Assembly: GCA_903838415.1 (NCBI GenBank)
Contig: CAILYI010000084.1
Span: 1 to 64,000 of the forward strand
DNA: 64,000 nt
Direction of reading: 5' to 3'
Source: an uncultured Anaerolineae bacterium
Lineage (GTDB): Bacteria > Chloroflexota > Anaerolineae > Anaerolineales > Villigracilaceae
Shown: positions 6,009-26,639 of the stretch, piece after piece
Position numbering within the stretch: the first letter of the stretch is position 1
Layout: every line of letters starts with the position of its first letter
Position numbers and translations under genes: made by a program
Notes under the pieces: model-generated
Database searches by the model: none
Told to the model about the DNA's origin: nothing
Seen by the model: the letters and a program-made list of their open reading frames with translations, nothing else

Positions 6009-7997
6009 TTATTTTTCCACTGCGCCCGCATCGATCCATTGCGTGAAGAGCGCCAGTTCATCGACGGTCAGGTTCATGGCATGAGCCTTGCTCTGAACCT
6101 CAATCAGCTTGCTATCGGCTGATTTTCCGGCGACGATCACCGGGCCATCCGCGCTGCCTTTCATCAAGTTAGCATAGCTGGTCAAATCCAGGCCTTTGGG
6201 GGCGGCGGCGTCTTTATGGCACATGGTGCATTTGGTGGTCAACATGGCAGCGATGGCGGCATCGTAGGTGGGGGCACTGCTGCTGGATGAAGCCGCTGGA
6301 GCAGGTGCGCCCGCGTCGATCCACTGCTTCACCAGGGCCAATTCATCCGTTGTCAGGTTGGCAAAATGCTGGGTGGTTTGCTTGGTAATCAGCATGCTGT
6401 TGGCTGAATCGTTCGGCGTGACGACGGAACCATCTTTGCCGCCCTTCATCAGGCTTTCATAACTGCTGAGATCGAGTCCGCCGGTGAGCGCCGTGGCGTT
6501 ATGGCAGGCAGCGCACTTGGCAAACAGCGGTTCGATGTTTGCTTTATAGTCTGGGGCTGTGCCGGAGGCTGGCGTGGGGGCTGGGATGGGCGTGGGAGCC
6601 GGAGTCGGCAGTTGGGCCTGGATGACTTCGCGGAGTTTCGGTGCATCGAATCCGGCGTAGGTGAAGGTGGATCCATGGCAGGCGCTGTTGGAGCAGAACG
6701 AGGTGTTGGTGGTCGATCCGGCATCGGCAGTATTGTGGCAGGCCGAGCAGCTTTGATCAAAGACCTTGTTGTGCATGCTGATCCAGTTCGGATTGTGGTG
6801 CGAATCCGGTTCAGGTCCGCGGCTGAGTTCGATTTTGGCGACAAAGTCGGCTTTGCTGGCGACCACCGGGATGGAATGACACAGGTTGCATTCCAGGCGG
6901 ATGGCTTGCTGATTGGCATCGAGGTGTTTTCCGTCATGACAGCGGAAGCAGCCAGGGCTTTGGAAGTGTCCAATGTTATTCGGGTGAGTGTCCCAGTTGA
7001 TTTTTTGATCGATGAAAACCGAATCGGCGTAGATCGACTGCAATTTTACAACCGCTGCTGTAACTTTATCCTGATTGGCTGCATAGAAATCTGGATAAGT
7101 GGTTTTGTAAAAATTATCCAGCGCAGTAATTCCGGCCTGGGCATCCGCCTGGGTGGCATAATTTCCGCGCAGGGTCTCAACGCTCTGTTTTCGAATTTCC
7201 GGGATGGTGGATGAGATTATTCCAAGCGATAAGGCTTGATCCACAGAGTCTTCGGGGGCGTAAATGCGGTGCGTGATGCGGTTGTGGCAGGTCATGCAGT
7301 CCATTTGCTTGAGTTTGCTCGGGTCAATCTGGGCTGGATCCACGCCCGCCTGAACATCCACATAGTCAACGGTGCTGCCATCATCCTTGACCACGCGCAC
7401 AAAGGGGATTGTCTGGTCAAGTTCATCAGTGGAGTAGTAAGAGACCTTGTTCATGATGTGCCAGTGAATTCCAAGTCCCTGGCCTTCGCGCTTGGCGCCG
7501 CCACCTGTTTTTAGCACCAGGTAGGTGTAATAGGGGGTATTTTCGGCATCATCCTTGAAATGGGTGATGAGACGCAGGCTGTCATCCGAAAACTTTTCTG
7601 GCGTATGGCACTGTTCGCAGATTTCGCGTGCCGGGCGCATGCTTTCAGCCATGATCGGGTATTCGTAGGTGGTAAAAGTCATGGCCACCAGATGCTTCAA
7701 GTCTCCAGCTTTTCGGAAAAGCTGATTGCCAATAAACTCGCGTCCAATGTGGCATTCCACACAGGCCACGCGGGCATGCGGCGAAGCCTCATAAGCCGCA
7801 TATTCCGGAGGCATGGTGTGACAACTCGTCCCGCAGAATGGGGATGAGTTGGTATAGGCCCAGCCATAGGCGCCTCCCACCAAAACCAAGGCGGATAATA
7901 ACCCAAGCACAGCATATGGCAAAATCAATAAACTGCGCGGAGAACCGGGTGGGGGGAAGAAAAATTTACGTAGAGATGTTCGTAATTGCTTTAGCAT
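6009..7997 (-). CDS. NapC/NirT-like multiheme cytochrome c (10 heme motifs) with two C-terminal cytochrome c modules
   Basis: Start ATG at 7997 (MLKQLRTSLRKFF). Motifs CGTSCH (CX3CH), CVECH, CEQCH, CMTCH, CFRCH, CNLCH, CSACH, CSNSACH (CX4CH), CAACH, CTMCH; N-terminal TM anchor. Confidence 0.85.
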   Translation of the reverse strand: MLKQLRTSLRKFFFPPPGSPRSLLILPYAVLGLLSALVLVGGAYGWAYTNSSPFCGTSCHTMPPEYAAYEASPHARVACVECHIGREFIGNQLFRKAGDLKHLVAMTFTTYEYPIMAESMRPAREICEQCHTPEKFSDDSLRLITHFKDDAENTPYYTYLVLKTGGGAKREGQGLGIHWHIMNKVSYYSTDELDQTIPFVRVVKDDGSTVDYVDVQAGVDPAQIDPSKLKQMDCMTCHNRITHRIYAPEDSVDQALSLGIISSTIPEIRKQSVETLRGNYATQADAQAGITALDNFYKTTYPDFYAANQDKVTAAVVKLQSIYADSVFIDQKINWDTHPNNIGHFQSPGCFRCHDGKHLDANQQAIRLECNLCHSIPVVASKADFVAKIELSRGPEPDSHHNPNWISMHNKVFDQSCSACHNTADAGSTTNTSFCSNSACHGSTFTYAGFDAPKLREVIQAQLPTPAPTPIPAPTPASGTAPDYKANIEPLFAKCAACHNATALTGGLDLSSYESLMKGGKDGSVVTPNDSANSMLITKQTTQHFANLTTDELALVKQWIDAGAPAPAASSSSSAPTYDAAIAAMLTTKCTMCHKDAAAPKGLDLTSYANLMKGSADGPVIVAGKSADSKLIEVQSKAHAMNLTVDELALFTQWIDAGAVEK

Positions 7998-8021
7998 AAC
8001 CGTTTGTCCTGTTGTGGAATT

Positions 8022-8071
8022 GGTTATTGGGACGGAATCTTTCCTTTTGGTCTGATCCCGTCCCAATAACC
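8022..8071 (-). repeat. Intercistronic stem-loop
   Basis: GGTTATTGGGACGGAATC / GATCCCGTCCCAATAACC inverted repeat (17/18 complementary), 14-nt loop, between two operon genes. Confidence 0.8.
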
Positions 8072-8095
8072 CTTCAGTTCTGGTACGGATGGCTT

Positions 8096-9967
8096 TTACG
8101 GATTAGCACCAGCAGAGATCCAATCCAAAATGATTTGGGTTTCTTCTGCAGGCAACTTGCCTCCCGGCGGCATCGACATTCCATTGACGCCTTGCAGGAG
8201 CTTGGCGATTGAACTATTGGTGATATCACCGGCGACCAGAGCCGGACCTTCCTCTGTCGACCCGGTAATGGTTTCGTATGAGGTTGCATCCCAGCCGCCC
8301 AGCTTTGTGGAAGAATTGTGACAGATGAGGCATTTTGTCTGGAAGATCGGCAGGACATTCTGGGTGAATGTCGTTTGGCTGGCAGAACTGCTCGGGGTTG
8401 CGGTTGGCTGCACCGGGGCAGGGGTGGCAGTCGGCAGCGCCGGGGGTGGGTTGGCTTCCCAGCTGCGGATGTATGTCACAATGGCATCCACCTGATCGTC
8501 GCTGAGGGGGCCGCCATTTGCGGAAGAAAAGGCCGTCATGCCAGAATCGGGCAAGCCCAAAGCGATGATATTCCGAAGCGTGATGTTATCGCGCGTTTTT
8601 AGGAAATCAGAAGAACTGATGGTGGTAATCATATCACCAGAACGTCCTGGGATAGGGCCACCCTGCCCGAATTGTCCGTGGCAAGGAGAACAATTCTGGG
8701 TAAAGAGCTGCGCCCCGGCTTCGAGTCCCTGGCCCGTGCTGGCAACCAGGGTGTATTTCGTGAGGGCATCGAGCTGTTCGGGGGTAAGAATTTTACCCCA
8801 AACTGGCATGGTCACATGCGCGCCGCCCGTGCTGATCATTTTTTGGGCAGTCTCAAGGTCAGGGGAGGTTGGTACCTTGTCACCATGACAGGCTGCGCAA
8901 TGCTGATCAAACAATGGCTTGCCTGCCGGGGTTCCCGAGGGATTCATGACATAAGCAGCCAGGGTTTCGAGATCGGCCTTGCTCAGTGATCCTTGCCAGG
9001 CGGGCATCGTGACGTGCTGTCCACCCTTGCTGATTAAGGCGCGCAATTCGCTTTCTGTGCCAGAGAAGGCCACGCCAACACCGTGACAACTGGAACAGTT
9101 AATTTCAAAAAGGCGTTGACCATCTGGCGCAGCCAGGAAGTTCAACAAAGAGTTGTGTTCATCACTTGAGAGCACAGAATTCCAATCTGGAACGTTCTGG
9201 CCTTTGTGAGCCGCATAGTTTGGACCTTGTTGGAGAACCAGTTGCAGTTCTTGAAGGTTTCCTGAAGCAAACACGGTTACATTATGGCATTTGCCGCACT
9301 GCGCAGTGTAAAGAGCGCTGCCTTTTTGCGAGGTGATGAACCCGGCCAGGGCGTCAATTTCGTCGGTGCTCAAGTCACCGCCCCAGGCGGGCATGCCGGT
9401 ATGACCGCCCTGCGCAATCAGTTTGTGCAAATCTGTCCCGGCTGGGACGACAATGCTGGGGCCATGACAATTGGAGCAGTTTTTGGTATACAAAGCGGCA
9501 GCCTTATCAACTGGAGCCGCGGCTTGGGGTGGTGGCGCTTCCCGCACGGACAGAACGCTCAAGGTGATTATCCCGCCGACCACCAAAATAGCCGCCAGGC
9601 TGGCGTAGGGCCGGTTAAGAAAATGGCGCTTTGGGCTTTTGTCAAGAAATGGCAGCAGGATCAGCAGCAGGATGAAAAGTCCCGGGATCACCATGACGCC
9701 GATAACTTCCAGGTTGCCCGGAAAGTATTTGAGCAGTTGGAATAGAAACAGGAAATACCATTCTGGCCGCGGGGTATAGGCTGTATCGTTTGGATTGGCG
9801 CGAGCTTCCATGGGAATTCCCACAAAGTAAGCGAGCGCAACCAGCACGATAAATACCAGCAAAACGACAATTGTGTCCTTGAAAATGATGTCCGGGAAAA
9901 AAGGGACGCCTTTTTCTTTGGCTTTTTTGTATTGTTCTAGATAGTCTTTCTTTTCCTGGTCGTTCAT
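8096..9967 (-). CDS. Cytochrome b6/f subunit IV-like protein fused to six c-type heme motifs
   Basis: N-terminal PetD-like region (ARANPNDTAYTPRPEWYFLFLFQLLKYFPG) then CSNCH, CGKCH, CSSCH, CAACH, CSPCH, CLICH. Confidence 0.85.
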   Translation of the reverse strand: MNDQEKKDYLEQYKKAKEKGVPFFPDIIFKDTIVVLLVFIVLVALAYFVGIPMEARANPNDTAYTPRPEWYFLFLFQLLKYFPGNLEVIGVMVIPGLFILLLILLPFLDKSPKRHFLNRPYASLAAILVVGGIITLSVLSVREAPPPQAAAPVDKAAALYTKNCSNCHGPSIVVPAGTDLHKLIAQGGHTGMPAWGGDLSTDEIDALAGFITSQKGSALYTAQCGKCHNVTVFASGNLQELQLVLQQGPNYAAHKGQNVPDWNSVLSSDEHNSLLNFLAAPDGQRLFEINCSSCHGVGVAFSGTESELRALISKGGQHVTMPAWQGSLSKADLETLAAYVMNPSGTPAGKPLFDQHCAACHGDKVPTSPDLETAQKMISTGGAHVTMPVWGKILTPEQLDALTKYTLVASTGQGLEAGAQLFTQNCSPCHGQFGQGGPIPGRSGDMITTISSSDFLKTRDNITLRNIIALGLPDSGMTAFSSANGGPLSDDQVDAIVTYIRSWEANPPPALPTATPAPVQPTATPSSSASQTTFTQNVLPIFQTKCLICHNSSTKLGGWDATSYETITGSTEEGPALVAGDITNSSIAKLLQGVNGMSMPPGGKLPAEETQIILDWISAGANP

Positions 9968-9969
9968 GA

Positions 9970-10632
9970 CTATTCCTCTTTCTTTTCTGGCACCGCAGAA
10001 ATGCCAATCCGGATGATCAGATAAAGGTGAACGAAAATCAAACCGAATAAAGAGGCCGGTAATACCCAGATGTGTGTACCGAAGAAGCGCGCCAGGGTTA
10101 CAGCCGAGAGATTATCTCCACCGCGCGCAACGCGCAGCAGCCAATCTCCAATGAAAGGCGCAACCCCAATAATGCGAGTTCCAACTGTTGTTGCCCAGTA
10201 AGACTTTTGATCCCATGGGAGCAAATAACCTGTGAAGCCAAAGCCAATTACCAGGATGAACAGAATTACGCCGGTAATCCAGGTTGCTTCGCGTGGAAAT
10301 TTGTACGCGCCGTAGAAAAACACGCGCAAAAGGTGAAGGACAGTCAGCACGACCATGGCGCTTGCGCCCCAATGGTGTAAACCACGAATGAGCCAGCCTC
10401 CCGGCAGTTGAGTCGTGATGTACATCACGCTGTCATAGGCGTGGTCTGGGGTTGGAACATAATATAACGTGAGCAAAATACCGGTGACTGCTTGAATCAT
10501 CGCTACAAACAGGGTTGCGCTCCCCAGCGTGTAGAACCAATTTACATGCGGTATTTTACGCAGAAAAATGGCTTCATTAACTGAACGCCATCCAAATCGA
10601 TCATCGAGCCAATTTCCAAGTTTTTCCAACAT
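9970..10632 (-). CDS. Cytochrome b6 (N-terminal cytochrome b)
   Basis: GGWLIRGLHHWGASAMVVLTVLHLLRVFFYGAYKFPREATWITGV ... GFTGYLLPWDQKSYWATTVGT: cytochrome b/b6 heme-ligand regions. Confidence 0.95.
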   Translation of the reverse strand: MLEKLGNWLDDRFGWRSVNEAIFLRKIPHVNWFYTLGSATLFVAMIQAVTGILLTLYYVPTPDHAYDSVMYITTQLPGGWLIRGLHHWGASAMVVLTVLHLLRVFFYGAYKFPREATWITGVILFILVIGFGFTGYLLPWDQKSYWATTVGTRIIGVAPFIGDWLLRVARGGDNLSAVTLARFFGTHIWVLPASLFGLIFVHLYLIIRIGISAVPEKKEE

Positions 10633-10635
10633 TGT

Positions 10636-11118
10636 TTATCCTCGCTTAATGAACAAGATGCCATTTTCGACTTTGGTTTCAAAGCGGTCCAATGGACGAG
10701 GCGGTGGCCCGGCTTTGACGGTGCCATCCTTGGCAAAAACGCCATTGTGGCACGGACAATAGAAACCTTCCAAATCGGCAATCCAACGGATGCGACACCC
10801 TAGGTGTGTGCAAACATTGGACATGGCAACAAAATCCTGCCCATTTTCTGTCATAACGTAGGCTGAAACATCCTCTTGCGTATTGATCCAGCCGGTTTGA
10901 GTGTCAATGGTGGCTTTAAACAAAGTGGGAGTATTTAATTCCACTTTACTGATTGCGCCCAAGCGAATCCACGCATTGGTTTCTTGTTGGGATGCTGGCC
11001 CAATAATATAACCAATAGCAGGTATACCAATTGCCACGGCAATAGTGCCACCCATCCCGGCAATGGCTACCTTCATGAAGTCGCGGCGGGTCACTTTCTC
11101 ATCCTGTGACTCACTCAT
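10636..11118 (-). CDS. Rieske 2Fe-2S protein of bc complex (Tat signal)
   Basis: TRRDFMKVA twin-arginine signal; CTHLGCRIRW...FYCPCHNGVF Rieske motifs. Confidence 0.95.
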   Translation of the reverse strand: MSESQDEKVTRRDFMKVAIAGMGGTIAVAIGIPAIGYIIGPASQQETNAWIRLGAISKVELNTPTLFKATIDTQTGWINTQEDVSAYVMTENGQDFVAMSNVCTHLGCRIRWIADLEGFYCPCHNGVFAKDGTVKAGPPPRPLDRFETKVENGILFIKRG

Positions 11119-11283
11119 AGATCTCTTTCTCCTTTGGCGATTTTTTGTAACTGCTTTCGTTTATTGATTCTATCACCCGGAAACTGCGCAGCTTTTGCAT
11201 CATTTGGCGGTGCCGGATGATTTTTCATGATTTAATGGGCATCCTTGCGTGTCACCAGACATTTTTCGGAAGCCCGTACAGAA

Positions 11284-11340
11284 ACGATAAACAATCTTCA
11301 AAAAGAAACAGGAAGTTTCAATTTGGAGATTGCTTATCGT
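11284..11340. repeat. Long intergenic hairpin
   Basis: 26-bp stem with 3 mismatches and one wobble, loop AGGAA: ACGATAAACAATCTTCAAAAAGAAAC-AGGAA-GTTTCAATTTGGAGATTGCTTATCGT. Confidence 0.8.
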
Positions 11341-11440
11341 AAATTGAGTATTGCAACCCGAAAAGGATTGCAATTACACCAATAAAAAATCAAACACAAG
11401 ACTTTGGTTAGCGGTACCAACAAAACTTACTACAGCGTGA

Positions 11441-12607
11441 TTATTTTTCAGGCGCACCTGCGTCAATCCACTGTTTGACCATATCAAGCTCTTCGGGCGT
11501 CAACTGACCTGGATGCCCACCCGCTGCTTGCTTTTGGATTAATTTGCTATTGGCGCTGTCTTTGGCGACGATGACAGGACCGTTAGTGCTACCCTTCAGT
11601 GTAGTTGCATAAGTCGACAGATTCAACCCGGCCATCGCCGTTGCACCATGACAGGCCGCACATTTTTGCTGGAATAAGGGCCCGGCGAAAGCGTCCCAAG
11701 TCAGCGCGGCGACTGGCGGCGATGTGGGGGTCGGAGGAGCTGGTGTGGGAGTCAGGGGCGCAAATACGGGAACCGTTTCACCCGTCGGCAGGGTGGTGAC
11801 CGCGGTTGTTTCAGAACTGATGAAATTATACAAGCCAAACCCAAAAACGACTGTAATAATTACCGCAACCGGGGCATAGATGATTTGTCGTGTGCGTAAT
11901 ACAGCTGGGGGAATCGGCTTGGCATGTTTGCCAGATTCTATCGTGGCAAGTTCCGCAGGGTGCTCATGTTCCATTTCTTCGTGAGTGAGCTTCCCCGTAA
12001 ACATGCTCGGGTTCAGGGTTTTGATGTGGACATGGTAGAAGTGCCAGATGATAATGGCCAGCACCGCCAGTACCGCTTCGCCGCCATGCGCCGCTTTGGC
12101 AGCCGGAATGGCTTCGCCCGGCAGCATGCGCAGCGTGGAAAGCGGATTCCACATCATAAAACCCGTCAGCCCCATCACAACCGTTCCCCAAATCAGCGCC
12201 AGATACTCGGCTTTCTCTGCGTAGGAGTAACGTCCGTAATAGGCTTTGTGCTTTCGTCGCCCGATGTAATAAAGTACATCATCAAAAACGTGCTGAATAT
12301 CGTTAATCCAGGGGATCATGCTGATGGGAGTGCGCAGCACAAAGATGCGATACAACAATTCCAGCACATGCACCAGGCTGACAATCATCATCACAATTGC
12401 GGACGAATGGTGGATTAATCGAGCATTTTCCACGCCACCCAGCAAGTTGAACAACCCTACGCTGATTGGCGAGAGCGGAAATTTCTGCGGCAAACCGGTG
12501 AAACCCAGCGTTGAGAAAGACACCAAAAATATGATGTGCTGGAGTCGTTGCAGGAGATCAAAACGCACGTAGATCTTGGATGGCGAGTTGCTGGCGGGCT
12601 TAGTCAC
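11441..12607 (-). CDS. Membrane cytochrome b (HydC/FdnI-like) with C-terminal c-type cytochrome module
   Basis: Paralogous to 13967..14695; C-terminal KCAACHGATAMAGLNLSTYATTLKGSTNGPVIVAKDSANSKLI...QWIDAGAPEK. Confidence 0.82.
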   Translation of the reverse strand: MTKPASNSPSKIYVRFDLLQRLQHIIFLVSFSTLGFTGLPQKFPLSPISVGLFNLLGGVENARLIHHSSAIVMMIVSLVHVLELLYRIFVLRTPISMIPWINDIQHVFDDVLYYIGRRKHKAYYGRYSYAEKAEYLALIWGTVVMGLTGFMMWNPLSTLRMLPGEAIPAAKAAHGGEAVLAVLAIIIWHFYHVHIKTLNPSMFTGKLTHEEMEHEHPAELATIESGKHAKPIPPAVLRTRQIIYAPVAVIITVVFGFGLYNFISSETTAVTTLPTGETVPVFAPLTPTPAPPTPTSPPVAALTWDAFAGPLFQQKCAACHGATAMAGLNLSTYATTLKGSTNGPVIVAKDSANSKLIQKQAAGGHPGQLTPEELDMVKQWIDAGAPEK

Positions 12608-13967
12608 GGCGAGCCTCCTCGTCGGTGGATTCGGCTGAATCAGGCTTTTCGGCGGGCGCGGATTCTTGGTCCGTTTCCGGTTCAGCAGGTGGTTCTGGGA
12701 TATTGGCCTCTTCAGCCACTGAAGCTTCTTCGGTGGATTCTGTTGATTCTTCGGTCTCTTCGACTAATTCGCCGGTTTTGGGATGTTTCAACTTTTTGTG
12801 AATCTTTGTCAGCTGCGGTTTTCTGAAACGGTTAATCATCATCCGGCTGAAATCCATCACAACCAGCACGCCCATCGGAATCAGCACGCCGGGAATCAGG
12901 AATTTGTAAAACAGGTTGATGTAATAAACCATCGGATACTTGTCTGGCGACGGGATATAGTGCGACAGCCAAGCTTCAGGGAAGTTGGTGTTTGCATCCG
13001 GATGGCATTTTTGGCACTTGGTCAGCAGGTTTGCTTTGACTTGCAACCCCTTGACGGGATCATCCACGCGGGTAATGTCGTGAATTCCGTGGCAGTCGTA
13101 GCAGACTGGCTTATTCGTGATGGCATCCGGGGATACCTTTTCAAAAATTGTGACGGTTGTGCCGTGAAAATCTGCCACATAAGTGTTCAACACCTGTGTG
13201 GAGATATTATACTTATCCATGCGCTTGGGATCAGTATGGCACTTGGCGCAAATTTGTGGAGAGAACAAACGGAAAGTTGACGTGGTTGGGTTTTCAATGA
13301 TGTGGACGCCGTGACAGTCAATGCAGGTGGGCACATCCGGGTTATTTCCATCAGTCAGCGCGGCCCCATGCACGCTGTTTCGGTATTTTTCGTAAATTGC
13401 GCTGTGGCATTTCTGACAGGTCGTCGGAATCCAGATGCGCGTGGTCGGTAAAAGCTGATGGGTGGTTGGATCTTTTATGCGCTGCACCGCATGAGAAGTG
13501 TGACAGTCAGTACAAATTGCCGCCTTTAACTGGCCCACGGAGCGCGCCGCGGCGTGAACGCTGTCTTTTTCCTGGTCAGCCTGTTGCTTATGGCATTGAC
13601 CGCAGGTTGTATTAAGCTGAAGGGTGGCTTCACGACGGCTGCCAAATTTCAACCCATGACCTGCCCCCGGTTCAAAACCCACGTGACACTGAACACAGGC
13701 TATTTTGGTTTCGCCATGAACAGAGTGATTGAATTCATCAGGGTTGACACTTAAGTCGAACAAATCACCGTTTCCAAGGGTTACGCTGAACTGCGGATTC
13801 TGGTGACAGGCCAGGCAGGCCTCATTATTGGCCGCCGCAGGGCGCGGCGCATCTGAACCGTTCGCCCCGGAAAAAGTGGGCCTAGCGGCAGCCGGCGAAA
13901 CGGTATAGCCAAGGGCGATGATGAACACCATCAACCCGGCGATTAGAAAATAGTAGCGTGGGCGCAT
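12600..13967 (-). CDS. Nonaheme c-type cytochrome, membrane anchored
   Basis: Nine CXXCH motifs (CLACH, CVQCH, CGQCH, CTDCH, CQKCH, CIDCH, CAKCH, CYDCH, CQKCH), signal peptide, C-terminal TM and acidic tail. Confidence 0.88.
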   Translation of the reverse strand: MRPRYYFLIAGLMVFIIALGYTVSPAAARPTFSGANGSDAPRPAAANNEACLACHQNPQFSVTLGNGDLFDLSVNPDEFNHSVHGETKIACVQCHVGFEPGAGHGLKFGSRREATLQLNTTCGQCHKQQADQEKDSVHAAARSVGQLKAAICTDCHTSHAVQRIKDPTTHQLLPTTRIWIPTTCQKCHSAIYEKYRNSVHGAALTDGNNPDVPTCIDCHGVHIIENPTTSTFRLFSPQICAKCHTDPKRMDKYNISTQVLNTYVADFHGTTVTIFEKVSPDAITNKPVCYDCHGIHDITRVDDPVKGLQVKANLLTKCQKCHPDANTNFPEAWLSHYIPSPDKYPMVYYINLFYKFLIPGVLIPMGVLVVMDFSRMMINRFRKPQLTKIHKKLKHPKTGELVEETEESTESTEEASVAEEANIPEPPAEPETDQESAPAEKPDSAESTDEEARRD

Positions 13968-14695
13968 TACTTTTTCTCCCCCGCTTGAGTTTTGTTGGCG
14001 ACCTGACCTATTTGCTGCTCGTAATCTTTTGTGTGGAATTCCCGCATCTCTGGCTCACTTAACCGGCCTGTAAAGATGCTCAGATTTAATCTCTCGATGT
14101 GGACGTGATAGATATGCCAGATCAATACAAAGACTGCCGCCACAATTGATTCGGTGCTGTGGGCAAGTTTTGAAGCTGGAACCACTCCGCCCGGCAGGAA
14201 CTGGGTAAACTGTTCCGGGAACCAGATAACAAAGCCCGTGATTCCCATCATGGCAATTCCAAAGAACAGGAACCAATAGGTGACTTTTTGCTCAAAATTG
14301 TATTTGCCGAATTTGGGCTTATCGTTGCGCAAGAAGAACAGGTATTGCAGCATGTGCCCGGCATCGAGCACATCTTGCCACACCGGCAGGATGTTTCCTG
14401 GTAACTTTCGGCGTGCGAGTAAAACGAGCGCCCGTCCGATGTGATACACAGCCTCGAGCGCCAGGATAAGCGCGGCGATGTGGTGGATTTGACGGATAAG
14501 CCCCAGCCGCTCAGGCGTCGAAAGCAAATCCTGGCTCCAGGAAAAATCACGGTACTTCTGCGGGAGGCCGGTTAACAACAAAACGGTGAAACTTAATATC
14601 AAAATCAAATGCTCCCAACGTTGCCCAAGCTTAAAGCGCAGGAACATCTTCTCTTCTTTGACATGTGCAGTGGTATTTTTTTGTTTTGCGGTCAT
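13967..14695 (-). CDS. Membrane cytochrome b subunit (HydC/FdnI-like)
   Basis: LRFKLGQRWEHLILILSFTVLLLTGLPQKY...IHHIAALILALEAVYHIGRAL...HSTESIVAAVFVLIWHIYHVHIE: conserved His and TM pattern. Confidence 0.82.
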   Translation of the reverse strand: MTAKQKNTTAHVKEEKMFLRFKLGQRWEHLILILSFTVLLLTGLPQKYRDFSWSQDLLSTPERLGLIRQIHHIAALILALEAVYHIGRALVLLARRKLPGNILPVWQDVLDAGHMLQYLFFLRNDKPKFGKYNFEQKVTYWFLFFGIAMMGITGFVIWFPEQFTQFLPGGVVPASKLAHSTESIVAAVFVLIWHIYHVHIERLNLSIFTGRLSEPEMREFHTKDYEQQIGQVANKTQAGEKK

Positions 14696-15816
14696 CGCAG
14701 GCTACTCCTCACGCGGTCAACAATGGAGCGAATTATTTGTAATACCACGTAGATGATGCAGGCCCATAGTACAAATGGCGTAAAGGATGTATAGAACGTG
14801 TTCACGTAAAACAGGAAGGGAGTCCGTTCCAGGCTGATTTCATTGTGCCCGGTCCAGGCACCTGTCCAGTTAGGTCCGGCGCCGGGATGGCATTTCTGGC
14901 AGGTTTTTAAAAGATTCTGCGGATTTACCTTGGATGCCGGGTCCTTGGTGTTGAGAATATCGTGAATTCCATGACAATCGGTGCAAACGGCGCTATCATG
15001 CCAGATGGTTGGCCAGCGAGATTTGTAAACCGAGAGATCGACGCCATGCCAGGAGCGCTTATAGATGCTATAGACATCTGCAGAAAGCCCATACTTGCCC
15101 ATCAGTTCTTTGTTGGCATGGCAGCCAGCACACATTTCAGGGCTTTCCATGCGGAATTGGATGGTGCGAGGATCCTGAATATTGTGGACGCCGTGACAAT
15201 CGGTGCAAACCGGTACATCCGGGTTATTTTCATCAATCAGGGCTTTGCCGTGAACGCTTTGTTTATAAGCATCCACAATTTCGGCATGGCACTTGCTGCA
15301 GGTTGTTGAAATGAGAGAACGGGGTTGATCGGGAGCCTGAACGTTGTGGGCGCCGTGACAATCTGTACAAATGGGGGCATTCAGGTTGCCGCCGTCAGCC
15401 GCCTTGGCATGCATGCTATCCAGGGTTTTTTGATAATTGCCTGGATGGCACTTTTGGCAAGCCTGATAATAGGAACGTGAAAGCTCTCTCTTGGTCTGGA
15501 AAGTTTGTGTGGGGTGAGGGTAGCTTTGGATATCAGTATGGCAGGCTACGCACTCAATTCCCAAGGGGCTATGGACTGAGTGACTGATTACATCCTGTGA
15601 AACGTAAAGCGACAGAGTCTCTCCGCTTGGTAAAGCCATACTCAGCGAGGAGTTTCCGTGGCAGGAAAGACAGTATTTTTCTGTTTCCTGAGTAGGCTGG
15701 CCTGCCCTGGCTGGTGTTACCAGCAACAGGCTCAACAGCAGGACAAGAGCGCCTGCCGCAATCAAGCCAATTTTCTGACCTGACAGGAACATCCGGTGCA
15801 GGGTGCGCGTTGTCAT
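14692..15816 (-). CDS. Nonaheme c-type cytochrome, membrane anchored
   Basis: Nine CXXCH motifs (CLSCH, CVACH, CQKCH, CTDCH, CSKCH, CTDCH, CAGCH, CTDCH, CQKCH); paralog of 12600..13967. Confidence 0.88.
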   Translation of the reverse strand: MTTRTLHRMFLSGQKIGLIAAGALVLLLSLLLVTPARAGQPTQETEKYCLSCHGNSSLSMALPSGETLSLYVSQDVISHSVHSPLGIECVACHTDIQSYPHPTQTFQTKRELSRSYYQACQKCHPGNYQKTLDSMHAKAADGGNLNAPICTDCHGAHNVQAPDQPRSLISTTCSKCHAEIVDAYKQSVHGKALIDENNPDVPVCTDCHGVHNIQDPRTIQFRMESPEMCAGCHANKELMGKYGLSADVYSIYKRSWHGVDLSVYKSRWPTIWHDSAVCTDCHGIHDILNTKDPASKVNPQNLLKTCQKCHPGAGPNWTGAWTGHNEISLERTPFLFYVNTFYTSFTPFVLWACIIYVVLQIIRSIVDRVRSSLR

Positions 15817-15819
15817 GAA

Positions 15820-16014
15820 CTATGACTCCTTCGTATTGTTGTGGGGGCTGTCATCTTGCTTATCTGATTCTTCGGGTGGTTCCGGGTTTTCAATCACCAC
15901 CCAGCCCATACGCCGGAGCAGGTAAGAAATCCCAAATAATATGGCGAGTGGAACCAGACACCGCAAGATAAATAGCAAAGCCACAAAGACTGGATTGGCA
16001 ACAGTCTCGCTCAT
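15820..16014 (-). CDS. Small single-TM protein, first gene of nonaheme operon
   Basis: MSETVANPVFVALLFILRCLVPLAILFGISYLLRRMGW...; ATG 16014 with GGAGGGAATAACG upstream; ends 4 nt before the next gene. Confidence 0.6.
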   Translation of the reverse strand: MSETVANPVFVALLFILRCLVPLAILFGISYLLRRMGWVVIENPEPPEESDKQDDSPHNNTKES

Positions 16015-16095
16015 CGTTATTCCCTCCGCGACAGTGTATTCTTGCTGTTCGCAACGTGTGATATAGGCATTGCAACTCCGTAACACGATTATTTT

Positions 16096-16109
16096 GGTTA
16101 AGTATAACC
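16096..16109. promoter_or_regulatory. Candidate operator dyad in divergent promoter region
   Basis: GGTTA-AGTA-TAACC inverted repeat. Confidence 0.35.
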
Positions 16110-16147
16110 TAAACGCGAGATTAAAATATCAGCAGCGTCTTATTGAT

Positions 16148-16164
16148 AAGTATTGGTAATACTT
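16148..16164. promoter_or_regulatory. Candidate operator dyad in divergent promoter region
   Basis: AAGTATT-GGT-AATACTT perfect inverted repeat between divergent respiratory operons. Confidence 0.45.
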
Positions 16165-16210
16165 GCGGTGACATTTGTTCTCGTTATTAATGACAGGCAA
16201 CACTTACTAG

Positions 16211-16239
16211 TTGATAGGATTTTTATTAACATGTAATCT
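16211..16239 (+). promoter_or_regulatory. Candidate sigma70-type promoter for the heptaheme/FeS/NrfD operon
   Basis: TTGATA - 17 nt - TAATCT upstream of ATG 16271. Confidence 0.45.
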
Positions 16240-16270
16240 TGAACCTATCTATTCATCGGGAGAATGAAAA

Positions 16271-17074
16271 ATGACGAAACAAACTTATATGAAAGTATTG
16301 TTGTTTTTGTCTCTTGTGCTGATTGCTGTAACGTTTGGCGTTCTGGTGGCGGCCCCCACCCAGCACGCTGCAGCGGCAGAGAAGAGTCAAGATATTGAAA
16401 CCTGCAAAAATTGTCACGCTAAGGCAGTAACGCCCTGGTCAACCAGCAAGCACAGCACGGGTAACGTCAACTGCCTTGTTTGTCATAAATTGGGAGCAGG
16501 GGAAGGCGCTCATCCTATGTTGAAGTACACCGTGGAATCTGAAGAAACCACCTGCCTGGTGTGCCATACTGAGGTATTCGGGGAGAATATTGCCGGACAG
16601 ATGAAACTTAGCCAGCATGGCAAAGTTGGTCTTAAGTGCATTACCTGTCATGAGCCGCATTCCCAGGGCCCGGTTCTCGCCCCCGGATCCACGATTGTTT
16701 GCGAAAATTGTCATAAGGAACAAATGGAAGGTAGCCTCAAATCAACCCATACCGCGGCAGGTTTGAACTGTATCAACTGCCACATGGGATCTGACAAGAG
16801 TCACACCCTGAAGGTTGCGGGCGAAACGTGCGGAAACTGCCATAACGATATCCATGAGGCCAATCGCATTGTCAGCGCCGGAATGCAGGTTCAGGTCCTG
16901 GCAACTCCGGCAGATGTCGTTGCAAAGGCGGCTGAACCGGAAAATGTGACTGAGCCGGTTGTTGCGGGTGGCGTTCACTTGCCGAGTTGGGCGCTTTTGC
17001 TGGCTGGCTTATTAATTGGTGGCATCATTACGTGGGTATTGCTCGGCAGAGACCCCGGTACGCCAGTTAAATAG
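16271..17074 (+). CDS. Heptaheme c-type cytochrome with C-terminal TM anchor
   Basis: CKNCH, CLVCH, CLVCH, CITCH, CENCH, CINCH, CGNCH; signal peptide; C-terminal TM. Confidence 0.88.
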   Translation: MTKQTYMKVLLFLSLVLIAVTFGVLVAAPTQHAAAAEKSQDIETCKNCHAKAVTPWSTSKHSTGNVNCLVCHKLGAGEGAHPMLKYTVESEETTCLVCHTEVFGENIAGQMKLSQHGKVGLKCITCHEPHSQGPVLAPGSTIVCENCHKEQMEGSLKSTHTAAGLNCINCHMGSDKSHTLKVAGETCGNCHNDIHEANRIVSAGMQVQVLATPADVVAKAAEPENVTEPVVAGGVHLPSWALLLAGLLIGGIITWVLLGRDPGTPVK

Positions 17075-17133
17075 CGGCGAGATTCTTGGGAAATACTTAT
17101 TAATTCCCATCCGCCAATTTTTGGAGGCTTATT

Positions 17134-17976
17134 ATGGATGAAACTCAAGAAAATCAGCCAGTCCCTGAAAAGCGCAGCACTGCACGACGCGACTTTGTGA
17201 AAGTCGCTGGCGCGCTTGCGGGAGCTGCTGCGATGGCTCAGTTTATCAGTACTGCCACGCTTGCCAGTCGTACAAAACCCTCTGGTACTGGCGAATCGAC
17301 CGCAGGGCCGCAATGGGGCATGTCGATCGATATAAACAAATGCATCGGCTGTAAATATTGCACTTATGCCTGCCAGGCTGTGAATAACCTGGCCGACAAC
17401 ATGATTTACAACATTGTGACGACCGAAACAATGCAAAACGGCAAAGAATACTTCCTTTCGAAGCCCTGCATGCATTGCACTGAAGCGCCCTGTGTGCACG
17501 TCTGCCCGGTCAAGGCCACTTACCATCGCCCCGATGGTATTGTGGTTATGGATTACACCCGCTGTATTGGCTGCCGGTACTGTCAGGTGGCCTGTCCGTA
17601 TGACGCTCGCGTTTTCAACTGGGGTGATCCGATTGAAACCAGCCCCAAATCACCGAATTTTGGTTTCCAGGAAGTTCCCAATCGTCCCCGCGGTGTTGTG
17701 GAAAAATGTTCCTTCTGCTCCCATCGCATAGACGGGGGACTGGCTCGTGGGATGGTTCCCGGAGTTGATGCGATGGCGACTCCAGCCTGCGTGGTGGCTT
17801 GTCCCACCGGCGCGCGCGCATTTGGTGATCTGACGGATCCGGAAAGCCCGGTTTCGAAAGTTTTGGCCGAATCCAAAGCAGTCTTGCGTTTGCGCGAAGA
17901 AGAGCTCAGCACCGAGCCAAGCGTCTATTACGTGCCCCCCGATGCCCATACCAATAATCCTTTCCAGAAGGGGTAG
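17134..17976 (+). CDS. Tat-exported 4Fe-4S ferredoxin-type electron transfer subunit
   Basis: ARRDFVKVAGAL Tat signal; CIGCKYCTYACQ, CMHCTEAPCVHVCP, CIGCRYCQVACP, CSFCSHRID...CVVACP cluster motifs. Confidence 0.93.
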   Translation: MDETQENQPVPEKRSTARRDFVKVAGALAGAAAMAQFISTATLASRTKPSGTGESTAGPQWGMSIDINKCIGCKYCTYACQAVNNLADNMIYNIVTTETMQNGKEYFLSKPCMHCTEAPCVHVCPVKATYHRPDGIVVMDYTRCIGCRYCQVACPYDARVFNWGDPIETSPKSPNFGFQEVPNRPRGVVEKCSFCSHRIDGGLARGMVPGVDAMATPACVVACPTGARAFGDLTDPESPVSKVLAESKAVLRLREEELSTEPSVYYVPPDAHTNNPFQKG

Positions 17977-17979
17977 GCC

Positions 17980-19248
17980 ATGCAAATATCTATACATTAC
18001 CCTAAGTTACACCTTGGCAAACGCTCTGTCGATATCTTTCCGTATTGGATTAGCCTGTTAATTGCGGGCATCCTGTTTGGGCTGACGGGCGCATTCTTCG
18101 TTTTCCGTGATGGCTTGAAGGTGACCGGTCTTTCCAACCAGGTTCCCTGGGGCTTGTGGATTTCCATTGACCTGTCATCGATCGCCCTTGGTGGCTGCGC
18201 CTTCGTTTTCGGCGCCATCATCTACCTGCTGCAAATAAAGCGCTTTGAATCGATCGGTAAGTTGGCCGTTCTGCTTGGGTTCTTGGGATATTCCACAGCG
18301 GGGATGGTTCTGCTGATGGATCTCGGTCAACCGCTGCGCTTCTGGCATCCGATTGTTTACTGGCAGCCGCACTCCCTGCTGTGGGAAATTACCATGTGCG
18401 TGGTGCTCTACCTGACCGTGCTGTTGGCTGAGCTTATCCCGGTAGTGGTGGAACATCCCCATTTTGACTCCCATCCCTGGCAGGATCGTATTCCGCTTTT
18501 GAAAACGCTGGCAAAGTTCGCCAAAACCTTATCTGTCTGGCTGCATAAGGCCGGGCCCGTACTGGCGATTATTGGCATGACACTTTCCCTGCTCCACCAG
18601 GCTTCGCTGGGCGCTACTTATTCAGTGCTATATGGTCGCGGGGTGTGGTTCAATCAGAGTGCGCCAACACAATTTGTATTCTCAGCCATGAGCGGCGGCA
18701 TTGCGCTTTTGTTCATCGCCAGCGTGTTTGTGTTCCGTGTCATGCGCCCTGGTCTGGTGACAGACGATGCGCTGTATGACGTAGCCCGCCTTGCGGGTGG
18801 CGCCACGCTGCTGCTGACTTACTTGCGCTTTTGGGATTGGGCTGTCACCAACTATTACAGCTTCGATCAACAAATTGCCCTGCAAACCCAACTGCTCGAC
18901 ACGGTCGCGCCGTATTCGGCAACGTTTTGGATCGGACAGGCGCTCTTGCCGGTGATTGCGGGCACGATATTGTTATCTGCCAACAGTGTGCGTAATTTCC
19001 GCTTCTTGATGGGGACCGCGATCATTCCTGTTTTTGCCACCGTCCTGACGCGTTGGAACTACAACTTCGTCGGTTTGATTGCTGCCACCTCCTATGATCC
19101 CTATACCCCTTCTGTGCGCCTTTTCTCTTACACGCCCACCTGGGTGGAATTTGCGGTAGGCACGCTGGTGATTTCTTACTGGTTGTTGATGTTCAGCCTG
19201 GCCACACGTTTCCTGCCTTTCCACGGAGAAAGACACACCGAGCATTAG
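17980..19248 (+). CDS. NrfD/PsrC-like integral membrane quinone-interacting subunit
   Basis: PolyTM protein directly downstream of FeS subunit; NrfD-like sequence (LHQASLGATYSVLYGRGVWFNQ). Confidence 0.88.
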   Translation: MQISIHYPKLHLGKRSVDIFPYWISLLIAGILFGLTGAFFVFRDGLKVTGLSNQVPWGLWISIDLSSIALGGCAFVFGAIIYLLQIKRFESIGKLAVLLGFLGYSTAGMVLLMDLGQPLRFWHPIVYWQPHSLLWEITMCVVLYLTVLLAELIPVVVEHPHFDSHPWQDRIPLLKTLAKFAKTLSVWLHKAGPVLAIIGMTLSLLHQASLGATYSVLYGRGVWFNQSAPTQFVFSAMSGGIALLFIASVFVFRVMRPGLVTDDALYDVARLAGGATLLLTYLRFWDWAVTNYYSFDQQIALQTQLLDTVAPYSATFWIGQALLPVIAGTILLSANSVRNFRFLMGTAIIPVFATVLTRWNYNFVGLIAATSYDPYTPSVRLFSYTPTWVEFAVGTLVISYWLLMFSLATRFLPFHGERHTEH

Positions 19249-19481: not shown

Positions 19482-19970
19482 ATGACATCGCCACGCATCA
19501 AATTTTTACTTGGCGGCTTGTTGATTGTCGCTGCTGTGGTTTATTTAATCGCTTCATCCACTCAGGCAAGCGCTCAATATTTCATGACCATTGACGAATT
19601 AAATGCAAAAAGCAAGAGTGTTGTAGAGAAAAACATCCGTGTTTCGGGCGCCGTCATTGGCGACACGATTACCTACGACGCTGCTACGCTGACTCTCAGT
19701 TTCACCGTGGCTCACGTCTCTGGTGACAATGCTGAGATCGAAAAAGAAGGTGGACTGGCTGTGGTGCTTCATCAGGCAGTTATCGATCCCAAACGATCGA
19801 AGTTGAAAGTTGTCTACGTTGGCGTCAAACCCGACCTGATGCGTAACGAAGCCCAGGCCATTATGACCGGCCATCTGGACGCAGAAGGTGTTTTCCATGC
19901 CGATGAACTTTTGTTAAAATGTCCAACAAAATATGAGGAAGCCGTTCCCCAGCAAGCACAAGGGAACTAA
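19482..19970 (+). CDS. ccmE: Heme chaperone CcmE (CXXXY type)
   Basis: TM anchor, OB-fold-like sequence, C-terminal HADELLLKCPTKYEE with Cys in place of the usual His; precedes ccmF. Confidence 0.9.
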   Translation: MTSPRIKFLLGGLLIVAAVVYLIASSTQASAQYFMTIDELNAKSKSVVEKNIRVSGAVIGDTITYDAATLTLSFTVAHVSGDNAEIEKEGGLAVVLHQAVIDPKRSKLKVVYVGVKPDLMRNEAQAIMTGHLDAEGVFHADELLLKCPTKYEEAVPQQAQGN

Positions 19971-19977
19971 TCGCCCC

Positions 19978-20003
19978 GTAGTAACGACTGAAGTCGTTAC
20001 TAC
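19978..20003. repeat. Intercistronic palindromic hairpin (ccmE-ccmF)
   Basis: GTAGTAACGAC-TGAA-GTCGTTACTAC perfect 11-bp stem followed by TTTTGTT. Confidence 0.85.
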
Positions 20004-20024
20004 TTTTGTTAACGGAGAATATCC

Positions 20025-22097
20025 ATGTTTGCAGATTTTGGTTATGGCATATTAATAATCTCGTTTTTACTGGCAATCTATGCCATTGGCGCGGCCATCT
20101 ACGGATACACTAGCAAATCCCAAAAGTGGGTGGAAAGCTCCCGCCTGGCGATGCAGCTTACCTTCCCGCTGATTTCGCTGGCGGCGCTCACGCTGATTTA
20201 TCTGCTGGTGACCGACCAATATCACGTAGCTTTTGTCTATGAAGTCACCAGCCGTTCCATGCCGATGTATCTCAAGATCACCGCTCTCTGGGGCGGACAA
20301 TCGGGCTCGCTGGTATTTTGGGGTTGGTTGATGTCGGCCTTTGCAACCGCCGTCACTCTGCGCAAATGGGACCGCGACCAGGAATTTTTGCCCTGGGTGG
20401 TGGTGGTTTCAAGCGTTACGCTGGCTTTCTTTATCGGACTGGTAATTTTTTACGAAAATCCCTTTGTCAAATACTGGCAAACCATTAGCGGAGAAGTAAT
20501 CAGCGCGATGTTGGCGCCCGCCGGGGCAATTCCGTTCACGCCTCCAGATGGACGGGGCCTCAATCCGCTGCTGCGTCATCCCGGGATGGTCATTCATCCC
20601 CCGATGCTGTACCTCGGTTTCGTCAGTTTTGTCATCCCGTTTGCTTTTGCGATTGCCGCGCTGGTGACGGGTCGCACCGATGACCGTTGGATTCGCATCA
20701 CCCGTCGCTGGACGATCGTGGCCTGGCTGTTTCTTTCGCTTGGTCTGGTGCTTGGCGGACGTTGGGCTTATGACGTGCTCGGTTGGGGTGGTTACTGGGG
20801 TTGGGATCCGGTGGAAATCGCGGCTTTCATGCCGTGGCTTTCCGGCACCGCTTTCCTGCACTCGGTCATGATCCAGGAAAAACGCGGCATGCTCAAGTAC
20901 TGGAATATGATCCTGATCATTGTGACGTATGCGCTGGTCATTTTCGGTACCTTCCTGACGCGTTCCGGGGTGCTTTCCTCGGTGCATGCTTTTGCCCAAA
21001 GTGCCATTGGCCCATCGTTTTTCATCTTTATCGGATTTACATTTGTCACGTCAGTTGCCCTGCTCATTTACCGCTGGGAAGACCTGAAATCTGAAGCGCA
21101 GATGACTTCCTTGCTTTCGCGCGAGGCGCTTTTCCTGCTCAATAACCTGTTGTTCATGAGCATCCTGGTAGTTTGCTTCTGGGGCGTGATTTTCCCGCTG
21201 ATTTCTGAACTGGCAACCGGGCAAAAAGTGACCGTTGGTCCGCCGTTCTATGAACGCGCCACCGGTCCATTGTTTGCCGCGCTCGTTTTGCTGATGGGTA
21301 TCGCGCCGCTTTCAGCCTGGGGTCATTCCACGCTCAAAACCCTTGGAAAAGCAATGTGGAAGCCGTTGATTGTGGCTTTGGTGGCGCTGCTGGCCGTGGT
21401 ATTTGTCGCGGGCATTCACGAACCGTATGCGTTGGTGGGCTTCTTTGTCATTTTCGCCAGCGCCTCCATCACCCTGTATGAATTTTGGCGTGCGGCGCGC
21501 GCCCGCGGACATGCCCAGCACGAAAACCTGTTGCTCGCTCTGTGGCGTTTGGCGGGACGCAATCGTCGCCGCTATGGTGGATATCTGATCCATCTTTCGA
21601 TTGTGTTCATGGCGATCGGCATCATCGGTATCGAGATGTTCCAGACCGAGACGCAGGGTACCATTGCGCAGGGACAGTCGCTCAAATTGGGTGGTTATGT
21701 GATCACTTACAAGGACCTGGCGGTCTTCGATACGGCTGACAATCGCAATGTGGCCCGCGCCGTGGTCGGCATCGAACGCGACGGGCAATTCCTGGGTGAT
21801 CTGCACCCGCGCCGTGACTATTTTTACGAATCCCAACAACCGATGACCATTCCAGGCGTCCGTTCCACGATGGCCGATGACTTGTATATCATCCTGGTGG
21901 ATTGGCAGCCGATCCTGTCTACTGGCGCCACTTTCAAGATTTACCATAACCCACTGGTCAACTGGTTATGGCTGGGCGCAATCATGATGATTCTTGGCTC
22001 TGTCGTCGCCGCCTGGCCCGATAAGGACCCGGAATACCTGCCTGTGCGCGTGCGTCGCGGACAGAAAGCGGCTTACCAACCCGGTCCGGTGAAATAA
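20025..22097 (+). CDS. ccmF: Heme lyase CcmF
   Basis: WWD-type region GGRWAYDVLGWGGYWGWDPVEIAAFMPWLSGTAFLHS; 690 aa polytopic. Confidence 0.96.
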   Translation: MFADFGYGILIISFLLAIYAIGAAIYGYTSKSQKWVESSRLAMQLTFPLISLAALTLIYLLVTDQYHVAFVYEVTSRSMPMYLKITALWGGQSGSLVFWGWLMSAFATAVTLRKWDRDQEFLPWVVVVSSVTLAFFIGLVIFYENPFVKYWQTISGEVISAMLAPAGAIPFTPPDGRGLNPLLRHPGMVIHPPMLYLGFVSFVIPFAFAIAALVTGRTDDRWIRITRRWTIVAWLFLSLGLVLGGRWAYDVLGWGGYWGWDPVEIAAFMPWLSGTAFLHSVMIQEKRGMLKYWNMILIIVTYALVIFGTFLTRSGVLSSVHAFAQSAIGPSFFIFIGFTFVTSVALLIYRWEDLKSEAQMTSLLSREALFLLNNLLFMSILVVCFWGVIFPLISELATGQKVTVGPPFYERATGPLFAALVLLMGIAPLSAWGHSTLKTLGKAMWKPLIVALVALLAVVFVAGIHEPYALVGFFVIFASASITLYEFWRAARARGHAQHENLLLALWRLAGRNRRRYGGYLIHLSIVFMAIGIIGIEMFQTETQGTIAQGQSLKLGGYVITYKDLAVFDTADNRNVARAVVGIERDGQFLGDLHPRRDYFYESQQPMTIPGVRSTMADDLYIILVDWQPILSTGATFKIYHNPLVNWLWLGAIMMILGSVVAAWPDKDPEYLPVRVRRGQKAAYQPGPVK

Positions 22098-22125
22098 CAT
22101 CCCAAGGAAATCTGCAGTTACGGGC

Positions 22126-22184
22126 AGTGCGCCGCGCCATCGATAAAGTGATGGATGTTTGCCAGAGCTTTGGCGCGGCGCACT
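22126..22184. repeat. Intercistronic GC-rich stem-loop (ccmF-ccmH)
   Basis: AGTGCGCCGCGCCA / TGGCGCGGCGCACT perfect 14-bp stem, 31-nt loop. Confidence 0.8.
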
Positions 22185-22219
22185 TGCTCTTGAAAAGTCC
22201 TACGAATCGGAGAAGTGCG

Positions 22220-22699
22220 ATGAAACGCAATGTATTGATTTTTTTGGCAATCACTGTTCTGGCACTGGGCTTTGCAAGCCGGGTTTTGGCGCAGGGACCG
22301 ACCCCGTCAGATGACGATGTCAACGCTGTCGCCAAGCAGCTCTTTTGCCCGGTGTGCGAAAACACCCCTCTTGACGTTTGTCCCACACAGGCCTGTGCCC
22401 AATGGCGTGAACTGATTCGCACAAAACTGTCTGAAGGCTGGTCCGCTGAGCAGATCAAGCAATATTTCGCCACGCAATACGGCGCCCGGGTGCTTTCTGA
22501 ACCGCCACGCCAGGGATTGAACTGGTTGGTTTACGTAATCCCGCCGGTATTGATGCTGATCGGTGTTTATATTCTGTTCCGCGCCTATCAATCCATGCGC
22601 AAACCGGTCCTTGCTGATGTGGATGAAGAAGAATCAGTCGCGGCAAATTCTGATAATTACCTGGCCCGAGTGGAAGAAGAACTGAAAAAGAGAAAATAA
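22220..22699 (+). CDS. ccmH: Cytochrome c maturation protein CcmH (four-Cys variant)
   Basis: LFCPVCENTPLDVCPTQACAQWRELIRTKLSEGWSAEQIKQYF; signal peptide and C-terminal TM. Confidence 0.88.
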   Translation: MKRNVLIFLAITVLALGFASRVLAQGPTPSDDDVNAVAKQLFCPVCENTPLDVCPTQACAQWRELIRTKLSEGWSAEQIKQYFATQYGARVLSEPPRQGLNWLVYVIPPVLMLIGVYILFRAYQSMRKPVLADVDEEESVAANSDNYLARVEEELKKRK

Positions 22700-22744
22700 A
22701 TTTTCTGGACTGTTGCTATTTCCAGAAATCTGAGGAGAATTTTT

Positions 22745-23341: not shown

Positions 23342-23348
23342 AGAAACC

Positions 23349-26636: not shown

Positions 26637-26639
26637 CAG

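Follow-up and report, generated by a model that had tools for sequence, protein, structure and literature searches.

The 64,000-nucleotide stretch analyzed here (the window) covers positions 1 to 64,000 of contig CAILYI010000084.1 of an uncultured Anaerolineae bacterium of the Villigracilaceae (assembly GCA_903838415.1). Between positions 6009 and 19248 it carries a respiratory locus that combines five quinone modules, which fall into four types: a tandem of two split CbcL-like pairs, an ImcH-like decaheme protein, a bc complex bearing a six-heme tail, and a Qrc/NrfD-like module. We consider it probable that this locus is a menaquinol-oxidizing hub for extracellular electron transfer (EET) in a presumed monoderm host.

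A direct count gave 42 c-type heme motifs in the open reading frames (ORFs) of the locus (40 CXXCH, one CX3CH, and one CX4CH), distributed as 10 (6009-8066), 6 (8096-9967), 1 (11441-12607), 9 (12600-13967), 9 (14692-15816), and 7 (16271-17074). Shuffled proteins of the locus contained on average 0.00-0.05 CXXCH each, or about 0.1 CXXCH summed, and chance thus does not explain these motifs. The total is exactly that of a preliminary description of this DNA, which had placed the ORFs at the same positions and had included the two atypical motifs. Pfam and NCBIfam profiles confirmed its list of other subunits, i.e., the Rieske protein, cytochrome b6, two b-type cytochromes (Ni_hydr_CYTB), a four-cluster ferredoxin, and NrfD, and also identified subunit IV (bIV). 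The three quinone module types that it named were retained, but not their number, as the 10-heme ORF represents a fourth type and two complete b/nonaheme pairs are present. The ImcH-like module, the link to the CbcL architecture, a 64-aa gene, a shared C-terminal domain, and the continuation of the plus-strand block into Ccm genes had been overlooked. The source genome, a metagenome-assembled genome (MAG), comprises 311 contigs, and its contamination was estimated at 8.6%; the locus was corroborated by same-genus relatives, the NrfD and c9A proteins of one of them (G010) being 89% and 79% identical, respectively.

Tandem Cytochrome b/Nonaheme Cytochrome c Pairs

Two pairs, each composed of a nonaheme c-type cytochrome with a C-terminal membrane anchor and an FdnI/HydC-like b-type cytochrome, are encoded on the minus strand. 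The first comprises c9A (14692-15816, nine CXXCH) and cytB1 (13967-14695; PF01292, 4.5e-15; formate dehydrogenase gamma subunit, 4.4e-23), and the second comprises c9B (12600-13967, nine CXXCH, overlapping its neighboring genes) and cytB2 (cytB2_c1, 11441-12607; PF01292, formate dehydrogenase gamma subunit, conserved His), which ends in a PSCyt1-like monoheme domain. The four genes overlap by 1-8 bases, and are thus probably translationally coupled. All nine CXXCH motifs and a distal His were invariant in 50 c9 sequences, and the conserved His residues of the b parts (29, 71, 85, 179, and 194 in cytB1) were kept in at least 90% of 28 sequences.

CbcL unites a diheme cytochrome b and a nonaheme cytochrome c in one polypeptide (PMC9129911, PMC6295460). 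Judged by architecture, the pairs resemble CbcL, MtrH, and MtoC of Geobacter, Rhodoferax, and Dechloromonas in combining a diheme FdnI/HydC-type cytochrome b, with its conserved His residues, and a periplasmic-type nonaheme cytochrome c, whose nine CXXCH in both c9A and c9B fall within the 3-23 of this class. However, the two parts do not form a single polypeptide in the window, where each module is split over two overlapping genes, the modules form a tandem pair, and cytB2 bears an extra monoheme domain. A chain with 27 heme motifs that joins c9 and cytB in the CbcL layout was encoded in a record titled Deltaproteobacteria (L117:5398-9396). No named Geobacter match to c9 was found among the 78 loci kept, and plasmid records contained no c9 relatives and, for cytB1, only formate dehydrogenase cytochromes. 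In a genome survey of 2018, the Chloroflexi yielded one ImcH and no CbcL homologue (PMC6295460). Among solved structures, the c9 profile best matched chain A of the Mtr complex (6r2q_A, E 2e-13), an entry that is wrongly named in the sequence file but bears the title "Structure of the Mtr complex" in the fold library; the AlphaFold2 model of c9A matched no PDB fold at E <= 0.001, despite its good quality (pLDDT 89.9).

A previously unlisted gene (15820-16014, minus strand), encoding a 64-aa protein with a single transmembrane (TM) segment, is the first of the minus-strand block and lies three bases ahead of c9A. By tblastn, the protein was encoded directly upstream of c9A in 23 of 25 c9A loci, which include some single genomes fetched twice, and had a match in one of 73 other c9 loci. 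It is a candidate small subunit of the c9A/cytB1 module.

Several variations were observed among the relatives. The C-terminal tails of cytB2 carried 1 to 12 heme motifs (L110, L111, L113, L115, and L101), with four tandem exit domains in L101. A further decaheme cytochrome c with a cytB partner, named c10 (L060:13113-15602, L071, L073, and L074), represents another, more remote type of b/multiheme module, and some of these loci also had a NapC-type gene. A sensor kinase/response regulator pair often followed the cytB2 gene (L089, L091, L095, L099, and others) and may mediate redox regulation.

ImcH-Like Protein, bc Complex, and NrfD Module

NapC10 (6009-8066, minus strand; eight CXXCH, one CX3CH, and one CX4CH; Cytochrom_NNT and two PSCyt1 domains) is a predicted quinol dehydrogenase of the NapC/NirT type that bears the CX3CH motif characteristic of ImcH from Geobacter. 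The longer ORF begins with TTG, and the in-frame ATG at 7997, which the preliminary description had taken as the start, is the likely start codon. The CX3CH motif (CGTSCH) lies at residue 78, just after the N-terminal and only TM segment (residues 43-71), and the CX4CH motif at residue 458; both were kept in 26 of 27 full-length homologues and were therefore counted as predicted heme sites. TM counts were derived from hydropathy, and ORF calls in relatives were mechanical. The number of CXXCH motifs, eight in the window and seven in 20 of the 27 homologues, is within the range of ImcH (5-9). The sole solved relative was NrfH (PDB 2j7a_C, E 6e-10). An atypical CX3CH adjoining the membrane domain is the mark of ImcH, which has three TM helices, but only one in the Anaerolinea thermophila homologue and one also in Intrasporangium (PMC6295460). 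By architecture, NapC10 thus resembles ImcH in its NapC-type N-terminus, its CX3CH beside a TM helix, and its several CXXCH, but differs in its extra CX4CH, in its C-terminal PSCyt1-like monoheme domains, two of which stand in tandem in the window protein, and apparently in having one TM helix instead of three, as described for the A. thermophila homologue.

The bc complex is encoded by the adjacent minus-strand genes for a Rieske iron-sulfur protein (10636-11118; PF00355; CTHLGC...CPCHNG), cytochrome b6 (9970-10632; PF00033, 1.5e-50), and bIV_c6 (8096-9967), in which a b6f-type subunit IV is followed in the same chain by six monoheme c domains, of which the final one is PSCyt1-like (Cytochrom_B_C, CBB3/Cytochrom_C repeats, and PSCyt1). 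The Rieske motif, the four b-heme ligands (H86, H100, H187, and H202), and the PEWY motif (residue 68 of bIV_c6) that define the family are all intact. Although the Rieske protein, b6, and subunit IV with PEWY correspond to a split b6f-type complex, the locus has no cytochrome f/c1, and its subunit IV carries the six monoheme domains.

On the plus strand, the third set of genes encodes a heptaheme cytochrome, c7 (16271-17074; seven CXXCH, a signal peptide, and a C-terminal TM anchor by hydropathy), a four-cluster ferredoxin subunit with a Tat-type N-terminus, FeS (17134-17976; QrcC/DsrO/NrfC-like; DsrO, 209 bits; QrcC, 180 bits), and an NrfD-family quinone subunit nearest to QrcD (17980-19248; PF03916; QrcD, 195 bits, E 3e-57). 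Residues D114 and R358 of NrfD were kept in at least 95% of 30 homologues. A quinone Asp and a gate-keeping Arg are known from NrfD proteins (PMC8076601), and D114 and R358, read without alignment to QrcD, are probably their counterparts. The combination of a multiheme cytochrome c, a four-cluster FeS subunit near QrcC and DsrO, and NrfD recalls Qrc (QrcABCD), Nrf, and Dsr. In contrast to Qrc, an electrogenic menaquinone reductase (PMC6303296), the locus lacks the molybdopterin-like QrcB subunit and has a heptaheme cytochrome in place of QrcA, and the curated Qrc cut-offs were not reached (QrcC, 180 of 400 bits; QrcD, 195 of 570 bits). Membership in Dsr was rejected, as only DsrO passed (209 bits, cut-off 200) and DsrP failed (40.6 of 350 bits); neither DsrJ nor DsrMK was recognized in the locus.

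Conservation of the Neighborhood in Anaerolineae

Sixty-one genomes, from the source genome itself to members of its genus, family, and order, were compared, and c9 relatives were found in 34 of them. Eighteen of the 30 NapC10 copies, 16 of 34 for NrfD, and 9 of 18 for the decaheme lipoprotein Lip10 lay within 5 kb of c9, some of the misses being due to contig ends. With copies placed at random, well under 1% would be expected, given genomes of 2-6 Mb and a target of 10 kb for each c9 gene. The modules are therefore syntenic in Anaerolineae, a point on which the preliminary description had made its proposal depend: the neighborhood, made of c9/cytB with NapC10, NrfD/FeS/c7-8, Ccm genes, and decaheme lipoproteins, was conserved in variable subsets. 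The bc complex was the least conserved, occasional partner; only 3 of the 15 best b6 matches were located within 10 kb of c9, and it was present at the locus in the window and in L096, L099, L106, L133, and L151. Named c9 relatives belonged mostly to Anaerolineae/Anaerolineales MAGs, and more distant c9 genes were found in MAGs titled Acidobacteria, Myxococcales/Anaeromyxobacter, Nitrospirae, and Deltaproteobacteria.

A C-Terminal Domain Shared by Three Module Types

A PSCyt1-like domain is located at the C-terminus of three unrelated quinol-oxidase types. A profile built from the four such domains of the window was searched against about 110 loci, and matched 40 of 71 cytB2, 20 of 29 NapC10, and 3 of 5 bIV proteins, but none of about 1,400 other distinct ORFs, including 42 other multiheme proteins and all c9, c7, and Lip10 proteins. 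As PSCyt1 is a known Pfam domain that also occurs elsewhere, this specificity applies to these neighborhoods only. In a tree, the domains grouped by host protein (4 changes versus a shuffled mean of 22.8), with the bIV copies in one clade. The fusions are therefore old, and concerted evolution of the domain within a genome, or its recent copying between neighbors, was not supported. The shared domain may plausibly serve as a common exit or docking heme.

Surface-Type Cytochromes in Relatives and in the Source Genome

In several relatives, c9 was accompanied by decaheme (~710-780 aa) and hexaheme (~280-350 aa) proteins, most of them with a lipobox, which is directly followed in the hexaheme proteins by a collagen-like G-P-A stretch. 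These Gly-Pro-Ala repeats may act as stalks that keep the cytochrome at a distance from the membrane. Multiheme lipoproteins with such repeats right behind the lipobox were observed at L063:13244-14242, L064:14583-15626, and, in OmcA-like proteins, L171-L174.

Lip10 was not found in the source genome, whose multiheme inventory was made by family search. This genome encodes a 793-aa decaheme lipoprotein on contig C114, which is similar to OmcA/MtrC proteins (TIGR03507 and PF22113), but whose TIGR03507 score (132 bits) is below the cut-off (209), which has no porin partner, and whose homologues in four relatives have a lipobox followed by the collagen-like Gly-Pro-Ala stretch. The window's contig (C84) encodes, at ~100 kb and about 80 kb from the locus, a protein of no named family with 17 CX2-4CH motifs (L017:16391-17944). 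The model of Lip10 was of modest quality (pLDDT 70.5) and gave no useful structure match.

The OmcA-like protein was present in 5 of the 61 genomes, all five with a tandem c9A (hypergeometric p = 4e-5), and either surface-type decaheme (Lip10 or OmcA-like) was present in 20 of 34 genomes with c9 versus 3 of 27 without it (Fisher p = 1.6e-4), p values that overstate the case, since related genomes are not independent and phylogeny was ignored. No MtrB/PioB porin was detected in any of the 61 genomes, and an Mtr-type porin-cytochrome conduit was therefore rejected. The absence of MtrB is as expected, because the host presumably has no outer membrane, the monoderm envelope being taken from the phylum literature. 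Anaerolineales have been described as devoid of porin-cytochrome complexes, probably because their envelope is not of the Gram-negative type (PMC7399161), and multiheme cytochromes in Anaerolineales and EET in Chloroflexi have been reported (PMC7399161, PMC5808234).

Proposed Function and Alternative Explanations

In the proposed scheme, the predicted membrane complexes would oxidize menaquinol, the presumed quinone, and pass electrons to multiheme c-type cytochromes on the outer face of the cytoplasmic membrane, and from there to surface-anchored decahemes and an extracellular acceptor, which may be a mineral, a humic substance, an electrode, or a partner cell. Electrons would enter through the two split CbcL-like pairs, the ImcH-like NapC decaheme protein, a proton-motive bc complex, in which the six-heme tail on subunit IV would take over the role of cytochrome c1/f, and the Qrc-type NrfD/FeS/heptaheme module. 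Several entry points might let the cell match the redox potential of the acceptor, as in Geobacter, in which ImcH, CbcL, and CbcBA serve acceptors of differing potential (PMC9129911, PMC6295460). The bc complex would conserve energy and the NrfD module may do so as well, since Qrc is electrogenic (PMC6303296). The genome also encodes a group-1-type [NiFe] hydrogenase with NrfD on contig C52, which could feed quinol, and formate dehydrogenase-like genes. A possible but doubtful extension of this scheme is that the three unrelated quinol oxidases (b561/nonaheme, NapC/ImcH, and bc) dock through their common monoheme exit domain on one acceptor, as a plug-in supercomplex with exchangeable entry modules, and that, as the cell would have no outer membrane, stalked surface decahemes take the place of the porin conduit.

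Several observations, in addition to the non-independence of the genomes compared, weigh against a hub for EET. Fourteen of the 34 genomes with c9 had neither of the two surface decahemes searched for, the window encodes no terminal reductase or surface cytochrome, and the OmcA-like gene of the source genome is located on a separate 5.3-kb contig of a MAG with the contamination given above (8.6%). The direction of quinol turnover is not readable from sequence, and relatives of CbcL and MtoC also occur in iron oxidizers (PMC6295460); furthermore, homology to CbcL and ImcH was judged by architecture, and not against Geobacter sequences. Other outlets exist in the genome, namely two heme-copper oxidases and Ttr-like and Phs/Psr-like molybdoenzymes. 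The preliminary description had reported no molybdopterin or terminal reductase subunit, which holds for the locus but not for the genome: the search of the genome that it proposed yielded these enzymes, together with the OmcA-like decaheme and the 17-motif protein. It had also suggested a branched quinol:cytochrome hub, possibly for EET or a syntrophic lifestyle; the synteny, the surface decahemes, and the module types known from Geobacter EET argue for the hub and for EET, and syntrophy found no specific support.

It is possible, though unlikely, that the modules run in reverse, so that extracellular Fe(II) or a partner cell supplies electrons to menaquinone and these are used by reductases for oxygen or sulfur compounds that are encoded at other sites. 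Homologues of CbcL, MtrH, and MtoC in Fe(II) oxidizers as well as reducers (PMC6295460), cathodic EET by Ardenticatena (PMC5808234), the two heme-copper oxidases, and menaquinone reduction by Qrc (PMC6303296) are consistent with uptake, but ImcH has been linked to quinol oxidation only (PMC6295460), the intact PEWY and Rieske motifs of the bc complex normally indicate quinol oxidation, and the hydrogenase and formate dehydrogenase-like genes would supply quinol. We regard as quite unlikely a general distribution of electrons to soluble cytochrome c for aerobic oxidases without an extracellular step, for which the bc complex, the monoheme c domains, a Ccm-linked diheme cytochrome, and the heme-copper oxidases might be invoked: the oxidase contig (C136) has its own b/Rieske/c genes, a further b6-Rieske-bIV set stands beside succinate dehydrogenase (SDH)-like genes on contig C6, no oxidase gene was recognized in the conserved neighborhoods examined, and c9 associates with surface-type decahemes.

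Donation to a dedicated soluble reductase for nitrite, sulfite, tetrathionate, or polysulfide encoded elsewhere is highly improbable. NrfD, FeS, and NapC types serve such enzymes in other systems, and TtrA-like and Phs/Psr-like genes are present on contigs C95 and C3, but each of these molybdoenzymes comes with NrfD and FeS genes of its own, Nrf nitrite reduction was rejected as no NrfA scored above the cut-off, and no such reductase was recognized as recurring beside the modules in relatives. That independent respiratory operons gathered by accident near the Ccm genes, on which every cytochrome gene depends, has only a very slim chance of being correct. Ccm genes do adjoin NrfD or c9 in many relatives, NrfD also occurs in genomes without c9, and the bc operon is often elsewhere; nevertheless, the proximity of NapC10 to c9 (18 of 30 copies within 5 kb versus well under 1% at random) mostly involved no Ccm genes in between, and the C-terminal domain is common to three module types.

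Relation to Known Systems

Every module type is already known. Among open-licence papers, we found no published description of the split tandem CbcL-like pair, of its combination in one neighborhood with modules of the ImcH-like, bc, and Qrc-like types, of the shared domain, or of the 64-aa protein; no paper on ImcH or CbcL in Chloroflexota and, by title, none on such a locus in Chloroflexi/Anaerolineae. Extracellular respiration by Chloroflexota, which are presumed to be monoderm, has been shown with an isolate and with bioanode communities, but no described machinery was found for the quinol-oxidation step of EET in this phylum. The locus supplies concrete candidates for this step, and its recognizable neighborhood can serve as an Anaerolineae marker. 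Testable predictions on how several quinol oxidases might share one outlet follow from the C-terminal domain common to three module types and from the 64-aa protein. The locus could make a further part of the Chloroflexota testable for "mineral breathing".

Neighboring Genes

The two divergent blocks are separated by a 256-bp intergenic region (16015-16270), identified from the gene layout, which presumably contains the promoters of both. Promoter and terminator scans, including a consensus promoter scan of this region, performed no better than chance, and no RNA element scored above the gathering threshold. Downstream of NrfD, the plus-strand block continues into a Ccm system I cluster identified by Pfam (19482-28108, the end of CcmC), encoding CcmE, CcmF, CcmH, a CcmG-like thioredoxin, a CcmI-like protein, a diheme cytochrome c, CcmA, CcmB, and CcmC. 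The diheme cytochrome (658 aa; 23883-25859, plus strand) is kept inside this cluster in relatives. Finally, a 691-aa Fe-S oxidoreductase with Fer4 and two CCG domains and a long N-terminal part (31172-33247, plus strand) adjoins a LysR regulator and has paralogues on contig C3. Its family, which we take to resemble ETF:menaquinone-type oxidoreductases, could represent another quinol input.

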